From Gemmatimonadota bacterium (lineage in GTDB: Bacteria; Gemmatimonadota; Gemmatimonadetes; Gemmatimonadales; GWC2-71-9), in assembly GCA_016874005.1 (NCBI GenBank), contig VGVQ01000006.1, forward strand, positions 1 through 64,000: a stretch of 64,000 nt of DNA. The letters run 5' to 3'. Shown here in pieces: positions 6,881-16,855 of this stretch (position 1 is the stretch's first letter; the number at the start of each line of letters is the position of its first letter). The notes beneath the pieces are model-generated. The model was not told where the DNA came from and ran no database searches. It worked only from the letters and a program-made list of their open reading frames with translations. The position numbers and the translations under genes are program-made.

Positions 6881-8135
6881 GATCGTCGCCCGGGCGCTCG
6901 CGATCGCTCCTCGGGTCCGTGCCGAGCCCGCGCTCGGCGTGCTGTGGGCCGATGCCCGGGGCCTCGATGGTCTGGCCATTGCCCATGCGCTCCTCGATCT
7001 CGCCGACGCCACCCCGCTCCCGGGCGCCACCGCCGGCATCGCGGCCACGCCGATCGCTGCCGACGTCGCCGCGCGAACCGGCACCGAACGGGTCACCGCC
7101 GTCGCCTCTGGCACCGACCGCGCGTTTCTCGCTCATCATGACATCGGGGTGCTTCGCCCGTTGCCTCCCGCGGCGCTGTACCCGTTGCTCGCGAGCGTCG
7201 GAATCGAGCGCTGTGGCGATCTCGCCACCTTGGACCGAGAGGCCGTCGAGATCCGGTTCGGCCCTCACGGCACCGCCCTCTGGCGTCTGGCTCGCGCCGA
7301 CGACCCCCGGATTCTGTTTCCCCCCCGTCCCCGTGAACTCCCCAGCGCCGAGGTCGAGTGGGTCGACTACGAGCTCGATCGTCAAGAGCAGCTGGTGTTC
7401 ATCGTCAACTCGCTGTTGGGCAGCGTCACCGATCGGCTCGGGCGACAACGGCAGGGAGCCCACGCCATGACGTTGGAGTTCCAGCTGGCCAACCGGACCT
7501 CCGCCACCGAGCCGATCCGCGCCGCGCATCCTACCGCCGACCGGGCCACCTGGCTTCGGATCGTCCGGGCCCGCCTCGAGCAAGTGACATTCGCCGCGCC
7601 GGTCACCAGGATCCGCCTCGTGGTGGATCGGCTGGCACCGATCGACGACCGGCAAGGCGATCTCTTCGACAAGGGATTCGCCACCGCGCGGGCGACCGAG
7701 GCGGCACTGGCCCACTTGCTCGATCTCGCCCCGAATGCCATCGCGGTCCCCCGAGCGACCCGACATCCGCTTCCCGACCATCGGCTCGACTGGGCCGCCG
7801 ATCCGAGCGGCGAAAGCCTGGCCAGGGAATCATCGGTCGGCGCCATCCCGGTTGACCTCGATCCCGTCCTCACGGTCCAAACGCTGCCCGCCGCGGCGCC
7901 GATCGACGTCTGGAGCGTTGCCCGCCGAGACGCGGTCGTCCCGGATCGCTACTTCGACGGCATCCGCAACTATCACCTCACCAGGAGCTTGGGCCCGGAT
8001 CGAATTTCCGGTGGATTCGGCGGGGTCCGCTTCGACCGGGAATACTTCCAGTGCGTTCGCGACGACGGGGTGATGGTACTGCTCTACCACGATCGCGAAT
8101 CCGCGCGGTGGTGGCTCGCGGGATGGTGGGATTGA
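6822..8135 (+). CDS. imuB: ImuB, Y-family polymerase-like protein
   Basis: A 437-residue member of the DinB/UmuC superfamily, typical of ImuB in length and in its position between imuA and dnaE2. The N-terminus begins like family members (CLSSPAWPTDAA), but the acidic catalytic triad of Y-family polymerases is not visible; ImuB proteins are known to be catalytically dead scaffolds that bring DnaE2 to the sliding clamp. The C-terminal 60 residues form the Trp-rich module often found at ImuB ends. The start overlaps the imuA 3' end by 59 bp in another frame, supporting translational coupling. dnaE2 begins 1 bp after the stop. Confidence 0.88.
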   Translation: MTFACLSSPAWPTDAAISTEIVARALAIAPRVRAEPALGVLWADARGLDGLAIAHALLDLADATPLPGATAGIAATPIAADVAARTGTERVTAVASGTDRAFLAHHDIGVLRPLPPAALYPLLASVGIERCGDLATLDREAVEIRFGPHGTALWRLARADDPRILFPPRPRELPSAEVEWVDYELDRQEQLVFIVNSLLGSVTDRLGRQRQGAHAMTLEFQLANRTSATEPIRAAHPTADRATWLRIVRARLEQVTFAAPVTRIRLVVDRLAPIDDRQGDLFDKGFATARATEAALAHLLDLAPNAIAVPRATRHPLPDHRLDWAADPSGESLARESSVGAIPVDLDPVLTVQTLPAAAPIDVWSVARRDAVVPDRYFDGIRNYHLTRSLGPDRISGGFGGVRFDREYFQCVRDDGVMVLLYHDRESARWWLAGWWD

Positions 8136-8136
8136 G

Positions 8137-11100
8137 ATGGCCTTCGTCGAGCTTCGCTGCCACAGCGCCTTCTCGTTCGGTGACGGCGGCGTGGCGCCCG
8201 AGTCCCTGGCTCGCCATGCCAAGGCGTTGGGTCACACCACCATCGGTCTCACCGATCACGCCGACCTCGGCGGCATCGTCCGATTCGCGGTCACCTGTCG
8301 GGAGCAAGCGATCCGGCCGGTGGTGGGCTGCGAATTCCTGGTCGACGGTCGTCCACTCGCGCTGCTGGCCCGCGACCAGATCGGATTCCGCAACCTGGCC
8401 GCGCTGGTCACCGCCGCGCGGGTCGGCAATCTCCGCCGTTGGACCAAAGCCACCGCGACTCGCGGTCGCCCGCGACTTTCCTGGTCCCAGGTCGCCGAGC
8501 GGAGCGCCGGGCTTCACCTGCTCACCGGCCCGTCGTCGAGCATGCTGGCGACCCTGCTCGATCGGGGTCTGACCGACGACGTCGACCAATGGCTGCGCCG
8601 CTTTCGCGAGGCCTTCGATCGTCGCCTCGCCATCGAAGTCCACCTCCACCACGCCGGACGCCGCGAAGCCGCGTTGGCCGGCGCCTTGATCGCCCTGGCG
8701 CGCCGAGCCGGCATTCCCTGGGTGGCGACCCAGAACCCGCGCTACCTCGACTCGGGGACCAGGCTGGCGCACGAGGTGCTCACCGCGCTACGCCACGGCC
8801 TCGACGTGCCGACCGCCACCCGCGACGGTCTCCTTCATCCCAACGATCAATGGCGGCTGCTATCCGAATCCGAGATGGCTCGGCGGTGGCATGGAGCCAC
8901 GGCCGGCCTCGACGAGAGCGCCCGCATCGCCGAGGTCTGCCAGTTTCAGCTCCGCTGGGTCCGTCCCCCGCTTCCGACGTTCAAGGTCCCCGAGGGTCAC
9001 GACGACGACAGCTTCCTGCGATATCTCACCCTCGCCGGTGCCCGGACTCGTTGGGGCGATCCGTCGCCCCGTCAGCTCGCCCAACTCGATCACGAGCTGG
9101 CCATCATCGGCCGGCTCGGGTTCTCGGGTTTCTTCTTGGTGATGTGGGATGCGGTCCGCTTTGCCCACGATCGCGGGATTCTCGCCCAGGGGCGGGGCAG
9201 CGCCGCCAATTCCGCCGTGGCCTACTGTCTCGGGATCACCGCGGTGGACCCGGTCAAACACGGGCTGTTGTTCGAGCGGTTTCTCTCGGAAGCGCGGGTC
9301 GACGGGCTCACCGAGGCGCCCGACATCGACGTCGACATCGAACACGACCGTCGCGAGGAAGTGCTCGATTACGTCTATCGCCGCTATCGACGGTCCCACT
9401 CCGCGATCACCGCGGTCACCCAGATCTACAGCGCCTGCACCGCGGTCCAAGATTGTTTCCGCGCTTTCGGGCTCCCGGCGGAACAGGCCTTTCGGCTCTC
9501 CAAGCGGCTCCGAGGCTACGGCTGCCGGGAAGGGGTCGAGATCCTCCGTGACGGGCTCGCGGCGGCCCAGGGAGTCGACTTGGACGGTCCGGTGGGTGCC
9601 ACCATCCTGGAAGCCATCGCCGCGTTCGACGACCTGCCTCGTCTCCGCTCGACCCACCCGGGCGGCTTCGTGCTGTCGTCGGAGCCGTTAGGCGACTACT
9701 GCCCGATCGAGTCCACCTCGATGGGCCGGACCATCATCCAGTTCGACAAGGACGACCTCGACAGCGTCGGGATCCCCAAGTTCGATTTTCTCGGGCTCGG
9801 CGGGCTCGCGCTGGTCCGCCGGGCGTTCGACGCCATCGCGACCCGGACCGGCACCCAGCTGTCGATCTACCGCCTTCCCGACGACGACCCGGTCACCTAC
9901 GCCATGATCAGCCGGGGCGACACCATCGGCACCTTCCAGATCGAAAGTCGCGCCCAGATCGCCTCGATCCTCCACACCAAGCCGGACCGGCTCTACGATC
10001 TCGTCGTCCAGGTCGCCCTGATTCGCCCCGGACCGATTCAGGCCAAGTTCGTACACCCCTACACCAAACGGCGCCGCGGCGAAGAACCGGTCAGCTACCT
10101 CCATCCCGCGCTCGAGCCCATCCTGAAGCGCACTCAGGGCATTCCGATCTTCCAGGAACAGGCCATGGCCATCGCCATGACGCTGGCGGGGTACACCGCC
10201 GCGGAGGCGGATCTCCTCCGCCGCACCATGGGACATCAGCGAAAGCGGGGCAAGTTGCTCCAGGCGCTCGCCACGCTGCGCGAGCGACTGATCACCAAGG
10301 GCATCTCGGACACCGTCGCTCATCGGATCGAAGAGGACTTGATGAGCTTCGCCAACTACGGGTTTCCCGAATCGCACGCCTGGAGCTTCGCGCTGATCGC
10401 CTACGCCACCGCCTATCTCAAGGCCCACTACCCGACCGAGTTTCTGCTGGGGCTCCTGAACGCTCAGCCGATGGGGTTCTATCCGATCGCCACCTTGATC
10501 CACGACTCGCGACGATCGGGGGTGGTGGTGCTGCCACCCTGCCTTTCGGTTGGCGAGGGCGATTGCACCATCGAGCTGAACGAACGGGGCGAGCCGGCGA
10601 TGCGGCTGGGCTGGCGGTTCATCCGCGGCGTCGGCGACAAAGCGCTCGATCGGCTTCAGTCCATTCGCCATCGGGAAGGGCGGTTCGCGAGCATCCGCCA
10701 CGTCGTCAAGTCCGCCGAGCTCTCCGGGTCCGACGCGATCGCCTTGGCGCGTTCCGGCGCGTTCGGTCACTGGGAGTCCGATCGCCGCAAAGCGGCCTGG
10801 GAAGCCTTGCAGCACGTCCGCGATACCCTCCCACTGGCGCCGGCCCACCGGACCACCCACCAACCCCGCTCCCTCACGAAAACCGAGCGGGTTTTCCTCG
10901 ACTATTTCGCGACCGGGATGAGTATCGCCGGCCACCCGGTCGAACACATGCGAGCCCGCCTCGCGGCCGCCGGAGCAACCGACAGCCGCGCCCTCGCGAC
11001 GGCCCCGCATGGCGCTCCCGTGCTCATCGGCGGTTTGGTGGTCGCTCGGCAACGGCCGGAGAGCGCCAACGGCGTGATGTTCATCCTGATGGAGGACGAA

Positions 11101-11292
11101 TTCGGTTTCTTGAACGCCATCGTCCGCAGGGAGGTGGAGGTTGCCTACCGCGAAACGGCCCGCCGGGCCCCGTTCCTGCTCATTCTTGGCAGGATCCAAC
11201 GAGATGGTTCGGTGATCCAGGTTCTCGCCGAGAAGCTCAAACCGATCCGGCCCCAAGCGGCTCTGGCGTTTCGCTCCCGCGACTTTCGGTGA
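8137..11292 (+). CDS. dnaE2: Error-prone DNA polymerase III alpha subunit
   Basis: A 1051-residue C-family polymerase, the length expected for DnaE2/ImuC and shorter than replicative DnaE. An N-terminal PHP domain opens with LRCHSAFSF, where the first histidine of the usual His-x-His pair is Arg, suggesting a non-catalytic PHP. The polymerase active site carries the conserved PDIDVD block and a later KFDFLGL segment, which supply the three catalytic aspartates. A C-terminal OB-fold follows. In the family this enzyme performs damage-induced mutagenic translesion synthesis together with ImuA and ImuB. It is the last gene of the cassette. Confidence 0.95.
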   Translation: MAFVELRCHSAFSFGDGGVAPESLARHAKALGHTTIGLTDHADLGGIVRFAVTCREQAIRPVVGCEFLVDGRPLALLARDQIGFRNLAALVTAARVGNLRRWTKATATRGRPRLSWSQVAERSAGLHLLTGPSSSMLATLLDRGLTDDVDQWLRRFREAFDRRLAIEVHLHHAGRREAALAGALIALARRAGIPWVATQNPRYLDSGTRLAHEVLTALRHGLDVPTATRDGLLHPNDQWRLLSESEMARRWHGATAGLDESARIAEVCQFQLRWVRPPLPTFKVPEGHDDDSFLRYLTLAGARTRWGDPSPRQLAQLDHELAIIGRLGFSGFFLVMWDAVRFAHDRGILAQGRGSAANSAVAYCLGITAVDPVKHGLLFERFLSEARVDGLTEAPDIDVDIEHDRREEVLDYVYRRYRRSHSAITAVTQIYSACTAVQDCFRAFGLPAEQAFRLSKRLRGYGCREGVEILRDGLAAAQGVDLDGPVGATILEAIAAFDDLPRLRSTHPGGFVLSSEPLGDYCPIESTSMGRTIIQFDKDDLDSVGIPKFDFLGLGGLALVRRAFDAIATRTGTQLSIYRLPDDDPVTYAMISRGDTIGTFQIESRAQIASILHTKPDRLYDLVVQVALIRPGPIQAKFVHPYTKRRRGEEPVSYLHPALEPILKRTQGIPIFQEQAMAIAMTLAGYTAAEADLLRRTMGHQRKRGKLLQALATLRERLITKGISDTVAHRIEEDLMSFANYGFPESHAWSFALIAYATAYLKAHYPTEFLLGLLNAQPMGFYPIATLIHDSRRSGVVVLPPCLSVGEGDCTIELNERGEPAMRLGWRFIRGVGDKALDRLQSIRHREGRFASIRHVVKSAELSGSDAIALARSGAFGHWESDRRKAAWEALQHVRDTLPLAPAHRTTHQPRSLTKTERVFLDYFATGMSIAGHPVEHMRARLAAAGATDSRALATAPHGAPVLIGGLVVARQRPESANGVMFILMEDEFGFLNAIVRREVEVAYRETARRAPFLLILGRIQRDGSVIQVLAEKLKPIRPQAALAFRSRDFR

Positions 11293-11369
11293 ACGTTTCA
11301 ACCCCGCCGCTTCATTCGCTCTTCAGCCGGCCGTCGCTACCCTCTTGCCACCCCCGTCGAGAGACCGGT

Positions 11370-11852
11370 ATGGATTGGGCCCACCTTCATGTCGCGTTGA
11401 ACCATATCCCGATCATCGGCATCCCCATGGTCGGGCTATTCCTCGTCATCGCGCTGTTCCACCGTTCCCGCGACTTGGCCCTGGCCGCCACGGCGGTGTT
11501 GGTCCTCCTCGGCCCCGCCACCCTGGCGGTCAAAATGGGCGGGGAGCAAGCCGAGGAGGCCGTCGAAGGCGCGGCCTGGTTCAACGAAGCCGCCGTCGAG
11601 GAGCACGAGGAGGCCGCCGACCTGGCCACCATCGCGGCGCTGTTGACGGCCGTCGCGGCCGCCGTGGTGTGGTGGCGTCAGCGGGCCATGACCGAGATCA
11701 ACCGTTACGGCGTGGCCGGCCTTCTGGTGATGGTCGTCATCACCTCGGCGCTCCTCGGTCGTACCGCGCTCGCGGGCGGGGTGATCCGCCACGACGAGTT
11801 CGGCTCGGCCTCCCGAGTCGCGCCGGCCGTCCGCGAGGACGACGAACACTGA
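11370..11852 (+). CDS. DUF2231-like small integral membrane protein
   Basis: A 160-residue protein with four predicted membrane helices (about residues 10-30, 36-54, 88-108 and 118-136) and a conserved-looking start, His-Leu-His-Val-Ala-Leu-Asn-His. That pattern and layout recall DUF2231-type membrane proteins, some of which are thought to bind heme; the assignment is tentative. The loop between helices 2 and 3 is Glu/Ala rich. ATG 11370 is chosen because the membrane protein begins there; it follows dnaE2 by 77 bp and is convergent with the CPBP protease gene. Confidence 0.65.
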   Translation: MDWAHLHVALNHIPIIGIPMVGLFLVIALFHRSRDLALAATAVLVLLGPATLAVKMGGEQAEEAVEGAAWFNEAAVEEHEEAADLATIAALLTAVAAAVVWWRQRAMTEINRYGVAGLLVMVVITSALLGRTALAGGVIRHDEFGSASRVAPAVREDDEH

Positions 11853-11957
11853 TCGGTTGACGAGTCGACTTCTCGCGAGGATGTCCGGCGACACTTCGCC
11901 CCGAGACCGTTTCGCAGCCTCGACCCGGTACGCCCAGCCGGGGAGCCTCCGTTCGCC

Positions 11958-12686
11958 TCAGCGTTGCACCACGGCCAGGAACACGTCGTAGAGGGCGTGG
12001 CTCCAGGCCGCGATTCCGAATCCCCGGGCGAGGTACAGGCCGCTGAAGAGCAGGCCGGCGATGGCCCGGAAGGTGAACGAGTCGACCTCGAATGGGTCGC
12101 CGTAGGGTCCCAGGTAATGGAAGCCCGAGAATATCAGGGCACCGGCGACGATGGCGACGGTCGCGCTCGACCCGGGCTTCATTCCGAGGAGGCCTCGACC
12201 CACGGCGGCCAGACCCGAGACCAGGAGGACCCGGAACACCAGCTCCTCGTAGAGCCCGGCGCCGAGTGAGATCATGATCTGGGTCGGGAACCCGAATTGA
12301 TCCATCGGGCCGATCGCGAGCCCCCGACCCAGGACCAGCCCGGTCAGGGTGCTGGCGACCCCGCCTAACAGGGCGGCATAGACCATCGATTCGACCAGCA
12401 TCAAGGCCAGCAATCGACTCTCGATTGGCCCGGCTTTTCGATCGCGCCAGACCAGCACGGCGCCGACCCCGATCAAGAGGAGGCCGAAGGCCGCCAGGCC
12501 GTGTCGCCCCCCGAGCGCGGTGAACACGCTCTTGAGCAAGACGTCCGCCCCGTTGCGAACGCCGGCCATCGCGTCGCCGCTCAAGAGAAACGCCAGCGCC
12601 TCGTAGGCGAGCAGCAGCGGCAAGGCGAAGGTGAGGCTGTGTCGGGGGGCGCGGGATTTGGTCCAGTACGACGCGGCGGCGGACAT
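11958..12686 (-). CDS. CPBP (CAAX-type) intramembrane metalloprotease
   Basis: A 242-residue polytopic membrane protein with about six to seven helices. The three CPBP signatures are present: Glu-Glu-Leu-Val-Phe-Arg, then FSGFH, then a C-terminal His-Ala-Leu-Tyr-Asp, which together form the metal site of Rce1-like proteases. ATG 12686 is used; a stop codon (TAG) of the duplicated upstream reading frame ends 7 bp before it. Its first 28 or so codons are copied in degenerate form at 14647-14730, and comparison of the two copies shows that this gene was once directly downstream of the 14738-15250 gene. Confidence 0.85.
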   Translation of the reverse strand: MSAAASYWTKSRAPRHSLTFALPLLLAYEALAFLLSGDAMAGVRNGADVLLKSVFTALGGRHGLAAFGLLLIGVGAVLVWRDRKAGPIESRLLALMLVESMVYAALLGGVASTLTGLVLGRGLAIGPMDQFGFPTQIMISLGAGLYEELVFRVLLVSGLAAVGRGLLGMKPGSSATVAIVAGALIFSGFHYLGPYGDPFEVDSFTFRAIAGLLFSGLYLARGFGIAAWSHALYDVFLAVVQR

Positions 12687-12740
12687 GGGAACTAATGTAC
12701 GAGAAACCCGGGCCCGGGATTCAGCGGGCCATCTGGGGTT
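12564..12740. repeat. Direct repeat copy A: 170-aa-gene tail plus CPBP 5' end
   Basis: Positions 12564-12647 align without gaps to 14647-14730 with about 14 substitutions, and 12691-12730 align to the 40 bases ending near 14777. Read on the minus strand, copy A contains a relic reading TPDGPLNPGPGFLVH-stop, matching the true C-terminus (PLNPGPGFLVQ) of the 170-aa protein, followed by the intact start of the CPBP gene. Confidence 0.8.
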
Positions 12741-12908
12741 GCCGCGGGGTGGTAGTGTCGCCGATGGACCCCGCGGATCGGTCGGGCGTTGGAATTCCCC
12801 CGTCCATGCCGGTGTCCCGGCCGCTGTGATCGGCGGCTGACCGGGCACTGACCCGGGGATGATATCCCGGCCGCATCCTTCGACTGTCCTCAAAAGGCCC
12901 GGTCTCCA

Positions 12909-14645
12909 ATGCCAGCATCGTCCGCTCCGCGGCTCCTCGCCGCCGTCCTCCTCGGGCTGCCTGCCGCGGTGGGCGCTCAGTCCACGACGCCCAACACCAC
13001 CGTCAGGGTCTCGGCTCCGTCGGCGGCTGCCCCGCACCCCAGCGTGTCTCTCGCCCCGAGCCCCGGCCGCAAGATCCTGGGTGGCGGCGCCTTCGCCGAC
13101 TGGCGAGGTGCCGGGAGCCTGCTCGACCGCCTCCGTCCGGTCGGCGGCGCCTGGGAGGCCAGCGCCAAGGACCATTTATTCTCCGACCCGTCCTCCATTA
13201 CCGGGTACCTGGTCCAGCTCAACGATCCGACCAATCGGTTCGACGTCCAGGTGGCGGCGGCCGCGAGCGCCCCGTCCAACCGGCCCACCGCCACCGCTAC
13301 ACTGCCCGCCGGATACCTTGTGACCGGCGGTGGCTGCTGGGTGGACTGGCAACGGGCGGCCCAGCCCGCGGGCAACCTGCTCACGGGCTCATACCCCGAC
13401 GAAACGAGCCTCCGATCCTGGATCTGCGAGGCCAAGGACCATCTGGGCCCGAACCCCGCGGTGGTGCACGCCTACGCCATCGGAATCCGGGCGGTGAGCG
13501 GGCCAGCGCCGGCCGTCGTCATCACCAAGGTGACCAGCGGGGTGGGGCCGGCGCCCAGCATTCGGGCGACCGTGGCCCCGGGCTACGAGGTGACCGGTGG
13601 TGGGGCTCGCGCGGAGGTGTATCGAATGGCCAGCCTGGCCGCGCCCCGAACGACCACCCGCTCCCTGGCAAATCGCACCGTGCCGGGGGTTGCGCCGCCG
13701 GACAGCGGTGTCCTGCTCACGGCGTCGTTCCCTGTGGTTGGCCTGGCGTCGGCTGCGACTGGCTGGGAGGCTCGCGCCAAAGATCACGGAGTCTCGAGCC
13801 CAGGCTCGGTCACGGCGTTCGTCATCGGGATCAAGCTGCCCCCACCCCCGGCACCCCCGCCGCCCCCGCCGCCCCCGCCAGCCACCTGCTTCTGCACGGC
13901 CACCGGACCCTTCGCCCCCGCTGCGCCCGGTCCGATCAGCGGCGGTCTCCAAGGCTTCTTCAACCACCCCGTTGACGGCCGGTTCACCGTCACCGCGCAG
14001 TTGGTCAGTGGCCTGTCGGAACTCACGGTCACCGATGCTCAAGGACGAGTGGCGCTCAGCGTGAGCGGTGCGGTCGCCTGGGGCGTGAGTCCGAATAGCC
14101 GCTACTTCGCGGTCGTCAACTCGCCGGTTGGGACCAACGCCGGCAGCCCGCTGACGGCGTACCGGGTAGCGAGGGGTTCGAGCGGGTTCCGGTCCATCAT
14201 GTCTTCGGAGGTCTGGCCGGACGGCAGGTGGGGGTTCAGTCCGGACGGGAGCCAGCTCCTGATCGAGCGACTGCAAAACGCCCCGGTGAGCTACAGCCTG
14301 ACCGCGCACAATTTGTTGGCCGCGAATCCCATGACGGCCGTGCTGCACACCCAGGAGCTGTCCGTATTCGGCCCGAACGTGACGATCAGTCCTTGCGGCG
14401 ATCGGCTGATGTACAATCGGTGGACTCAGCTCAACCCGCAGCAGGGCCAGCTCGGCTTTTATGCCCGGAAGGACTATCCAATGACCTCATCGGTGGTCGC
14501 CGACTGGGATGGGTCTTCAGCCACCATGAGTGCCGCGATCGAGGCGGGAACCACCTTGAATACCTTCCTGGTCCGGCTCACCGGGGCCCGCCTGCGGAGC
14601 AACGGCCAGACCACGTTTACCAGCCGGCAATGCGAGGTACCCTGA
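12909..14645 (+). CDS. Secreted protein with three GGG...AKDH repeats and a proline-rich hinge
   Basis: A 578-residue exported protein of unknown function. A signal peptide ends near Ala23. Three tandem repeats of about 90 residues follow, each with a Gly-Gly-Gly turn (58-60, 140-142, 230-232), an aromatic strand and an Ala-Lys-Asp-His signature (about 86-89, 175-178, 290-293) followed by a strand like VxAYxIGI. A run of prolines (311-324) links to a 250-residue C-terminal part with phrases such as WGFSPDGSQLL, which look like blades of a beta-propeller, and with several cysteines. It lies between the two copies of a duplicated operon junction, on the opposite strand, so it was probably inserted there. 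Confidence 0.75.
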   Translation: MPASSAPRLLAAVLLGLPAAVGAQSTTPNTTVRVSAPSAAAPHPSVSLAPSPGRKILGGGAFADWRGAGSLLDRLRPVGGAWEASAKDHLFSDPSSITGYLVQLNDPTNRFDVQVAAAASAPSNRPTATATLPAGYLVTGGGCWVDWQRAAQPAGNLLTGSYPDETSLRSWICEAKDHLGPNPAVVHAYAIGIRAVSGPAPAVVITKVTSGVGPAPSIRATVAPGYEVTGGGARAEVYRMASLAAPRTTTRSLANRTVPGVAPPDSGVLLTASFPVVGLASAATGWEARAKDHGVSSPGSVTAFVIGIKLPPPPAPPPPPPPPPATCFCTATGPFAPAAPGPISGGLQGFFNHPVDGRFTVTAQLVSGLSELTVTDAQGRVALSVSGAVAWGVSPNSRYFAVVNSPVGTNAGSPLTAYRVARGSSGFRSIMSSEVWPDGRWGFSPDGSQLLIERLQNAPVSYSLTAHNLLAANPMTAVLHTQELSVFGPNVTISPCGDRLMYNRWTQLNPQQGQLGFYARKDYPMTSSVVADWDGSSATMSAAIEAGTTLNTFLVRLTGARLRSNGQTTFTSRQCEVP

Positions 14646-14646
14646 C

Positions 14647-14730
14647 GGCCATCGCTTCGCCGCCCAAGAGAAAAGCCACCGGCGCGTAGGCGAGCGGCAG
14701 CGGCGACACGAAGGTGAGGCTGTGTCGGGG
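14647..14730 (-). pseudogene. Degenerate fragment of the CPBP protease gene (28 codons)
   Basis: The minus strand keeps an open, recognisable copy of CPBP codons (PRHSLTF at one end, GGEAMA at the other) with about 14 base changes in 84 and no gaps relative to 12564-12647. The segment that held the start codon is missing: about 36 bp present in copy A are absent here. It lies directly after the stop of the 170-aa gene, the place where an intact CPBP gene would be expected. Confidence 0.75.
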
Positions 14731-14780
14731 AAGCGGACTACTGCACGAGAAACCCGGGCCCGGGATTCAGCGGGTCCGGT
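14647..14780. repeat. Direct repeat copy B: CPBP relic plus 170-aa-gene 3' end
   Basis: The partner of the repeat at 12564-12740. It carries the intact 3' end of the 170-aa gene and a broken 5' end of the protease gene, the mirror image of copy A. Both copies contain the palindrome CCCGGGCCCGGG inside the coding tail. Confidence 0.8.
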
Positions 14781-15250
14781 TTGGTCCACCAGCCTTCGAC
14801 AACCCGCTGCAGCATCGGGGCGATTCGTCGCGTCTCAGCCCAGGTGCCACCGATGCTCAAGTGCCGAAGGACCCAGTTGGCCAGGGCGAGACTGGTCGCC
14901 TGGTCGACCTCCTGCAACGTTTGGCTCTGCTCTTGCCCGGTCGGAGGGACCGTGGCCCCTTCGGCCTCGACCACCAGCGATTGGCTTTGCGGAAACCGTG
15001 CGGCCAGGGCGGCGAACAACGCCGCTCGCAACCGGTCGAAGCGCTTCCCGTCACCACGCACGGCCTGGAGGAGTGGAAAGATGGCGAGCAGGACGCAGGC
15101 AATCGTCAGGGCCCGAATGGCCCGATCGCGGTCGGGTGTCAGGGGCGCGAGCGGCAGTTGGTACCAGTGTCGGGAGAATCCGTCCGCCACGACGGCCACC
15201 AATCGCTCGGCCCGATCGGCCAGCGGGTCTCGAGCGCCAAACACCGGCAT
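14738..15250 (-). CDS. Single-pass membrane protein of unknown function
   Basis: A 170-residue protein with one clear membrane helix (about residues 48-65) and a C-terminal, probably extracytoplasmic, helical domain containing a Gln/Ser-rich segment and a Trp-Trp pair near the end. No family recognised. It starts 4 bp after the stop of the antiporter gene, so it is the second gene of an operon. Duplicated DNA shows that the CPBP protease gene originally followed it within 5 bp. Confidence 0.7.
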   Translation of the reverse strand: MPVFGARDPLADRAERLVAVVADGFSRHWYQLPLAPLTPDRDRAIRALTIACVLLAIFPLLQAVRGDGKRFDRLRAALFAALAARFPQSQSLVVEAEGATVPPTGQEQSQTLQEVDQATSLALANWVLRHLSIGGTWAETRRIAPMLQRVVEGWWTKPDPLNPGPGFLVQ

Positions 15251-15254
15251 CGAC

Positions 15255-16538
15255 TCAGGCGGGCCGGCGCCCGAAGGCCCACTTGAGGGCGGGCGGGGTG
15301 ATCATGGTCGTCACGATGACCATGACGACGATCGCGGAGTAGAGGGTCGGGCTGATCACGGCTACGCCTCCGATCGACAGTCCGAGCCCGATGTTCGCGA
15401 AGATGAGCCCGACCTCCCCTCGGGGCACCATCCCGATCCCCACCGCCCAGCGATTGACCGCGGCCCCCGCGCCGAGCCCGGACGACAGCTTGCCGATGAT
15501 GGCCGCGACCGAGAGGACACCCGCCAGCCCGAGCACCCCTAAATCGGCAAAGGAGCTGAGATCGGTCCTCATCCCCATCAACACGAAGAACACCGGTACG
15601 AACGCCTGGACCAGCGGATGGAGCAGGTCTTCGATCGACTGATCGCCGCGGGAGGTGTAGGGCGAGTAGTGAGCCGACTCGAGCACGAGCCCAGCCGCAA
15701 ACGCCCCGATGATCGCCGCCAGGCCGATCTGATAGGCCAGGTAGGCGGTCACGAAACAGAGGACGAGGCTGACGGCGAGCGCGGCCCCCTTGGTGCGCAA
15801 CCGAGCCGATCGGGCCACCACTCTGGGAGCCAACCAGACCCCGATGACCGTAGCCGCCACCAGGAAACCGACCGACTTGACCACCACCAACCCCATGGCG
15901 CCGTAACCCATGGCGGTGCCGGTGTTGGCGGCGGCGATCACCCCGGTCACCACCGCGAGCACCACCAACCCGAGCACGTCGTCGATCACCGCCGCCCCGA
16001 CGATGATCTTGGCCTCGGCGGATTGCGAGGTTCCCAGGTCCTTGAGCACTCGTGCCGTGATCCCGACGCTGGTGGCGGTGAGGGTCGCGGCGATGAACGC
16101 GTGCACGAACGGCCCGGCATCCGGAAGCCACCACCACCCCACCAGCCACCCCAGCGCAAACGGGGTCACCACCCCGAGGAGCGCCGCCGCCAGCGCTCGA
16201 GTCCCGACCGACAGCATCTGTCGCACCGTGGACTCGACGCCAACTTCGAACAGCAGGATCAACACGCCGATCCTGGCCAAGAGATCGACCCCAGGCTCCG
16301 TCTTGATGAAATCGAGCCCGCCGAACCCGAGCAACCCGAGATTCCCCAGAGCGACCCCGGCCAGCAGTTCGCCCAAGACGGCCGGCTGCCCGAGCCGCAC
16401 CGATAACTCCCCGGCCAGGAGGGCGACCAAGTAGATCACCGCCAGCGCCAGGATCACCGGAGCCGACGGGTCGGGCCCGGCGGCGGCCAGGGGAAGAACC
16501 AGGAATGGAACGAACCGGTGCCGCCGCAACCTCGCCAT
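15255..16538 (-). CDS. CPA2-family cation:proton antiporter
   Basis: A 427-residue inner-membrane transporter with about 12-13 helices, the size of the membrane core of KefB/KefC and NapA-type proteins without the regulatory TrkA-N domain. The segment AAVIDDVLGLVVLA carries the Asp pair expected in the CPA2 ion-binding site, and GMVPRGEVGLIFA carries the conserved Pro-Arg-Gly-Glu. ATG 16538 is chosen because AAGGAG lies 5 bases upstream. Family knowledge suggests exchange of Na+ or K+ for protons. First gene of a former three-gene operon with the 170-aa protein and the CPBP protease. Confidence 0.9.
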   Translation of the reverse strand: MARLRRHRFVPFLVLPLAAAGPDPSAPVILALAVIYLVALLAGELSVRLGQPAVLGELLAGVALGNLGLLGFGGLDFIKTEPGVDLLARIGVLILLFEVGVESTVRQMLSVGTRALAAALLGVVTPFALGWLVGWWWLPDAGPFVHAFIAATLTATSVGITARVLKDLGTSQSAEAKIIVGAAVIDDVLGLVVLAVVTGVIAAANTGTAMGYGAMGLVVVKSVGFLVAATVIGVWLAPRVVARSARLRTKGAALAVSLVLCFVTAYLAYQIGLAAIIGAFAAGLVLESAHYSPYTSRGDQSIEDLLHPLVQAFVPVFFVLMGMRTDLSSFADLGVLGLAGVLSVAAIIGKLSSGLGAGAAVNRWAVGIGMVPRGEVGLIFANIGLGLSIGGVAVISPTLYSAIVVMVIVTTMITPPALKWAFGRRPA

Positions 16539-16855
16539 GGAAACTCCTTCTCCCGAAAGTGCATCGCGCCGCCCACCGAAAGCGGGGAGCGGCGCGAGCG
16601 AAGTCACTCGAACTCGAGACGATACGCCTTGGGAAAGCTTCCCGACGCCGTCTCCAGCACGGGACCTACGCGATCACATGGCGACCGCTTGCCCAGCTCG
16701 AGTTCGAACGACGTTTATCACTAGACAATGGATCACCTCCTTACGAAAAAGGTGAGAAGGAACTGCCCCAGGGGCGTTTCCAAACTGACGAAGCCCGGTT
16801 CGGAAGACAAGGGGGCGGTCTTGGTGGCCGGCCGACCCAGGTCCTATCATTGATC
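16539..16855. other. 317-bp divergent intergenic region with a perfect long Shine-Dalgarno
   Basis: The region lies between the divergent antiporter and waaA genes. Plus-strand bases 16729-16743 equal the last 15 bases of bacterial 16S rRNA (TGGATCACCTCCTTA), so a minus-strand RNA would have a perfect 15-nt Shine-Dalgarno. Seven bases after its core, a TTG opens a 20-codon frame (16728 down to 16666). TCACCT (16733-16738) and AGGTGA (16750-16755) could pair and hide this site. GGGAA/TTCCC form a small hairpin near 16632-16644. I see no rRNA or tRNA gene here. Confidence 0.5.

Follow-up and report, generated by a model that had tools for sequence, protein, structure and literature searches.

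A duplicated antiporter-CPBP junction around a secreted-protein gene in a Gemmatimonadota genome, probably a scar of ordinary recombination

Genes and a direct repeat at the locus

The locus described here lies in a 64-kb stretch of a Gemmatimonadota genome, which was analyzed as a whole and is referred to below as the window. On the minus strand, an RNA element is followed by a cation:proton antiporter gene, a 170-aa open reading frame (ORF), and a broken CPBP 5' end, with an intact CPBP gene farther on; a gene encoding a 578-aa secreted protein occupies the plus strand between the broken and the intact CPBP (Table 1). Orthologs of CPBP are present in 30 of the 41 genomes searched, with 73 to 80% identity within the genus. 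A previous reading of the window from sequence alone (here called the sequence-only reading) had recognized both the broken CPBP 5' end after the 170-aa gene and the intact CPBP ORF, and the present analysis agrees on both. An additional ORF of 160 aa (positions 11370 to 11852, plus strand) that resembles a membrane protein sits between dnaE2 and CPBP; it had no Pfam match and was unmatched in the syntenic loci of congeners.

Table 1. Coordinates of features at the locus (positions are those of the window)
Feature	Position	Strand	Remarks
Intact CPBP gene	11958..12686	-	Rce1-like CAAX-protease family; Pfam PF02517, E 3.5e-10
J2, native junction copy, 166 bp	12563..12728	-	Antiporter stop region, spacer, and CPBP codons 1 to ~41
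Left part of 1917-bp insert, upstream of 578-aa gene	12729..12908	+	Limit is the repeat end
578-aa secreted-protein gene	12909..14645	+	
J1, duplicated junction, 129 bp	14646..14774	-	Decayed CPBP 5' end (pseudogene)
170-aa orphan ORF	14738..15250	-	Last 12 codons and stop inside J1
Unique core of 170-aa ORF	14775-15250	-	Second insert
CPA2-type monovalent cation:proton antiporter gene	15255..16538	-	PF00999, E 2.1e-55; TIGR00932, E 2.7e-46
Conserved RNA/leader element, CC2171-like	16567..16752	-	Rfam RF01867; upstream mark of the slot

The junction upstream of CPBP is present twice, as J1 and J2, and the two copies enclose exactly the 1917-bp insert (12729-14645) that carries the 578-aa gene. 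They align over a coding block (12563-12647 versus 14646-14730; 85 nucleotides, 88% identity) and a nearly identical spacer block (12670-12728 versus 14716-14774), which together represent a single homologous block with a 37-bp gap, the gap being a deletion in J1 that takes out the first codons of CPBP, including its start codon. BLASTN of J1 against J2 within the window gave E values of 2e-26 and 9e-12; the next-best match in the window (E 0.05) was the spacer's own palindrome, and the only other direct repeats of at least 40 nucleotides across the 64 kb were tRNA genes. The duplicated junction proposed in the sequence-only reading is thereby confirmed, with a similarity that extends beyond a low-complexity tail to the 85 coding nucleotides and the spacer. 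The copies are truncated at opposite ends: J1 stops at about CPBP codon 41, whereas J2 starts at the antiporter stop and runs into the intact CPBP, which leaves the apparently foreign DNA bordered on both sides by a direct repeat of target sequence. Both copies of the spacer contain a near-perfect 20-nucleotide palindrome, GAAACCCGGGCCCGGGATTC (12703-12722 and 14749-14768), which is not conserved in congeners.

An assembly chimera in this draft, probably metagenome-derived genome is a highly improbable source of the arrangement. The assembly consists of 49 contigs and J1 and J2 have an exact stretch of 30 bp in common, but 12% divergence and a 37-bp deletion between copies on one contig are not the outcome of a simple repeat collapse. 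The contig is 183 kb long with conserved synteny on both sides of the locus, and neither inserted ORF is disrupted, both being coding-like.

The locus in congeners and divergence of the junction copies

Five congeners (G001 to G005) were compared. In four of them CPBP lies directly after the antiporter gene, with a gap of 36 to 42 bp and antiporter orthologs that are 70 to 77% identical, and the flanks are those of the window, with kdtA to one side and, in contigs that extend far enough, imuB/dnaE2 to the other; the order dnaE2, CPBP, antiporter, kdtA is conserved with the site empty. In these four genomes the locus lacks both the 170-aa and the 578-aa gene, a DNA search of all congeners returned only matches to proline-rich stretches and no trace of either gene, and the left part of the insert was likewise unmatched in congeners. 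A second genome collection contained no closer relatives carrying the insertion. From the antiporter-CPBP adjacency in four congeners it follows that the ancestor had the pair directly joined, as a unit of two genes separated by about 40 bp. The empty site supports the earlier view of an interrupted operon with the 578-aa gene as a newcomer, but the uninterrupted operon has two genes and not the proposed three (antiporter, 170-aa gene, CPBP): none of the four congeners with the pair has the 170-aa gene, and the phylum sample contained no homolog.

The sequence that precedes the intact CPBP, which had been taken for a relic of the 170-aa gene, is instead the native spacer between antiporter and CPBP (CTGAATCC...) and is conserved in congeners. 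Congener spacers start with CTGAATC or GTGAATC directly at the antiporter stop, and both J1 and J2 start likewise. The copied spacer in J1 supplies the last 12 codons of the 170-aa ORF (DPLNPGPGFLVQ) and its TAG stop; the ORF gained its tail from this spacer, not the other way round. The 170-aa gene is thus itself an insert, with a core of about 480 bp. Its reading frame has coding-like codon use, and searches of 395 Gemmatimonadota genomes, of plasmids, and of phages gave no credible homolog of its product. Weak matches in four genomes were dropped on inspection: that in G008 was to a histidine-kinase-like membrane region (29% identity), and those in G138, G188, and G323 disappeared with BLAST.

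The base differences between the copies are confined almost entirely to one of them. Among the ten differences in the 85-base block, alignment with congeners assigned nine to J1 only and left one ambiguous, and at the changed codons J2 retains the congener consensus residues. Eight of the nine changed codons are nonsynonymous, against an expectation of 72% without selection. Being specific to J1 and mostly nonsynonymous, these changes indicate that J1 has decayed as a pseudogene. They also bear on homology-facilitated illegitimate recombination (HFIR), in which DNA from a relative that has the 578-aa gene upstream of CPBP would have crossed over within CPBP and been joined illegitimately to the resident gene, whose 5' end would now be J1. 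HFIR is known from several bacteria, it resembles the present case in that homology on one side anchors foreign DNA, and J1 and J2 differ by 12%. It is nonetheless improbable, since at least nine of ten differences are unique to J1 and eight changed codons are nonsynonymous, a pattern of decay after duplication rather than of two functional alleles, and since HFIR usually deletes recipient DNA instead of duplicating it.

J1 has accumulated about 0.13 changes per site, compared with a raw fourfold-site divergence of 0.42 between this CPBP and that of the nearest congener; on this rough estimate, the duplication event does not appear to be recent. When drift since the event was simulated, the frame of the 578-aa gene remained free of stops in about 3% of cases (17% if the lower bound of the estimate is used) and the core of the 170-aa ORF in about 20%. 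Such rare stop-free survival favors, without proving, the retention of the 578-aa gene by selection.

The insert and its mode of entry

The start of the 578-aa protein resembles a signal peptide and is followed by three repeats, a proline-rich linker, and a C-terminal part. Its repeats follow the pattern GGGA...W..G.LLTASYP...W.A.AKDH...P...AY.IGI, and it matched no family in Pfam, NCBIfam, PHROGs, or the PDB sequences. In a profile search of 395 Gemmatimonadota genomes the protein was detected here and, weakly, in two more; most matches within the phylum were to the proline-rich linker and were set aside. Plasmids of Streptomyces and Acaryochloris encode three-repeat proteins that are 28 to 33% identical to it. 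The repeat profile had no match in viral contigs, and neither inserted gene was matched in phages. Host codon fit is low for both genes, with 1 and 4 of the 29 reference ORFs of the window scoring lower, though the G+C content of both is normal. The rarity of the 578-aa gene in the phylum, the plasmid location of its relatives in other phyla, and its low codon fit suggest a foreign source. The three-repeat domain, of about 250 residues, is without a family name and is common to Gemmatimonadota, Streptomyces, and Acaryochloris, with the motifs GGG, LL.AS.P, and K.H. Structure prediction of the triple-repeat part alone reached a pLDDT of only 29.

No transposase or integrase family was recognized by Pfam among the ten neighbors tested, and direct and inverted comparison of the four insert ends gave no terminal repeats that stood out given the number of comparisons made. 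An inverted match of 34 nucleotides at 71% (12782-12815 and 15241-15274) was within the range of chance pairs. Insertion by a transposase also leaves an insert with direct repeats around it, but the repeat here is at least about 10-fold longer than usual transposase target duplications, and the search for a transposase or terminal repeats was negative. The sequence-only reading had likewise considered the duplication too long for a transposase target and had seen no transposase, and both points hold for the 129- to 166-bp repeat; a layout of this kind does not require a transposase. It is very unlikely that the insert is a gene-restoring integrative element now reduced to its cargo, with the junction as its attachment site in the manner of phages and islands that enter at gene ends. 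An insert between direct repeats with one gene end intact and one truncated would suit such an element, but a single gene fills the insert, in which no integrase family was found, neither gene has a phage match, and no such element was seen at this site in relatives.

The layout, in which a segment of 129 to 166 bp is duplicated, its copies are truncated at opposite sides, and foreign DNA lies between them, is exactly that of a single-crossover product. The most likely explanation, to which we assign a probability of about 0.45, is that the insert entered when a small DNA homologous to the junction over about 170 bp integrated by a single crossover, and the scar is probably of ordinary recombinational origin rather than the trace of a new system. 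The antiporter stop would have been the entry point of two foreign pieces into the two-gene unit, one being the roughly 480-bp core of the 170-aa gene and the other the 1917 bp with the 578-aa gene, which would have come in through one homologous crossover. The donor of this second piece would have been a small circular or recircularized DNA carrying the 578-aa gene and about 170 bp of the junction. Its integration would have copied the shared segment to both sides of the foreign DNA, the left copy keeping the upstream part and ending at about CPBP codon 41 (the J1 pseudogene) and the right copy beginning at the antiporter end and continuing into the complete CPBP (J2). The genome encodes ComEC- and DprA-family proteins, which is consistent with uptake of free DNA but is no proof of it, and a search of plasmids and phages yielded no circular donor with the homologous segment. 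A scan with the sigma-70 consensus, which may not be that of this organism, revealed no promoter-like site for the relocated CPBP.

In both J1 and J2 the homology begins at one and the same base, even though different foreign DNA abuts each copy. Single crossover alone does not explain this shared edge, which is a coincidence under that reading, although it is partly expected because a break outside the spacer would damage the antiporter or CPBP. The main rival is template switching during replication, in which synthesis would leave CPBP at about codon 41, copy a foreign or ectopic template of 1917 bp, and re-enter about 166 bp back at the antiporter stop, with the junction copied twice. This process is unlikely but would give an identical product and makes a circular donor unnecessary; re-entry could have occurred at a short GC-rich CCCGC that is present at the antiporter end too, and the join between J1 and the 578-aa gene is without microhomology of note. 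Against it, the genome has no second copy of the 578-aa gene that could have served as the template.

Single-crossover integration has counterparts in experimental systems. In E. coli conjugation, with nonreplicating DNA and homology at one end, most products were duplications of this type, 109 to 950 bp long, and they were ascribed to a single crossover with a circle missing part of the homologous segment (PMC3240628). This Campbell-type insertion-duplication at lacZ (PMC3240628) likewise placed a foreign segment between direct repeats of the target, with one gene intact and one truncated, and the 129 to 166 bp found here fits its size range; the lacZ case was selected in the laboratory with a plasmid, whereas the present event would be recorded in an old, diverged natural scar. 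In the merodiploids and tandem duplications of natural transformation (PMC3784515), partial homology of incoming DNA also yields a duplication, but those duplications are about 100 to 900 kb long and are bordered by pre-existing repeats.

The interval between the RNA element and CPBP

The RNA element upstream of the antiporter resembles the Caulobacter small RNA (sRNA) CC2171, with a score to Rfam RF01867 of 29.1 bits (E 0.003) that is below the gathering score of 75. The element occupies the same spot in several genomes. It is kept in all six genomes of the genus, and its exact core motif was present in 39 of 298 Gemmatimonadota genomes, once per genome, and in none of the controls. The element carries AGGAGGTGATCCA, complementary to the 3' end of a typical 16S rRNA, and after it TTG or GTG, then TCT, and a short frame of 12 to 23 codons; in G237 and G071 it ends in a terminator-like GGGGCCGC...GCGGCCCCTTTTT. 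The element could be an sRNA or a leader-peptide attenuator.

Within the family, the element is often located between kdtA and CPBP. In seven other members of the family it lies 140 to 231 bp upstream of CPBP with nothing between, whereas five members of the genus, including this genome, have the single-gene CPA2 antiporter in this interval. In G002 a complete Mrp antiporter operon (6974-12609 of its locus) replaces the single gene, with MnhG, MrpF, two Proton_antipo_M proteins, a chain-4L/MrpC-like protein, and MnhB recognized by Pfam; it is flanked by the RNA element (12722-12908, minus strand) and kdtA on one side and, on the other, by CPBP and its spacer, TGAATCCTGA. The existence of empty, CPA2, and Mrp states shows that the interval was filled on more than one occasion, most recently by the inserts in the window. 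We tentatively propose that the interval serves as a slot in which ion-transport and orphan genes are exchanged recurrently, and in which unrelated antiporter types were swapped in place at a fixed address. Alternatively, selection for antiporters beside CPBP may account for the pattern. That a single address has hosted two unrelated sodium/proton antiporter systems hints that CPBP and its antiporter neighbor are functionally linked.

The locus offers a natural record of a foreign gene settling inside an operon without a transposase, in which the empty site, the copied junction, and a decaying pseudogene can all be read at one place, together with an orphan ORF that obtained its C terminus and stop codon from duplicated spacer DNA.
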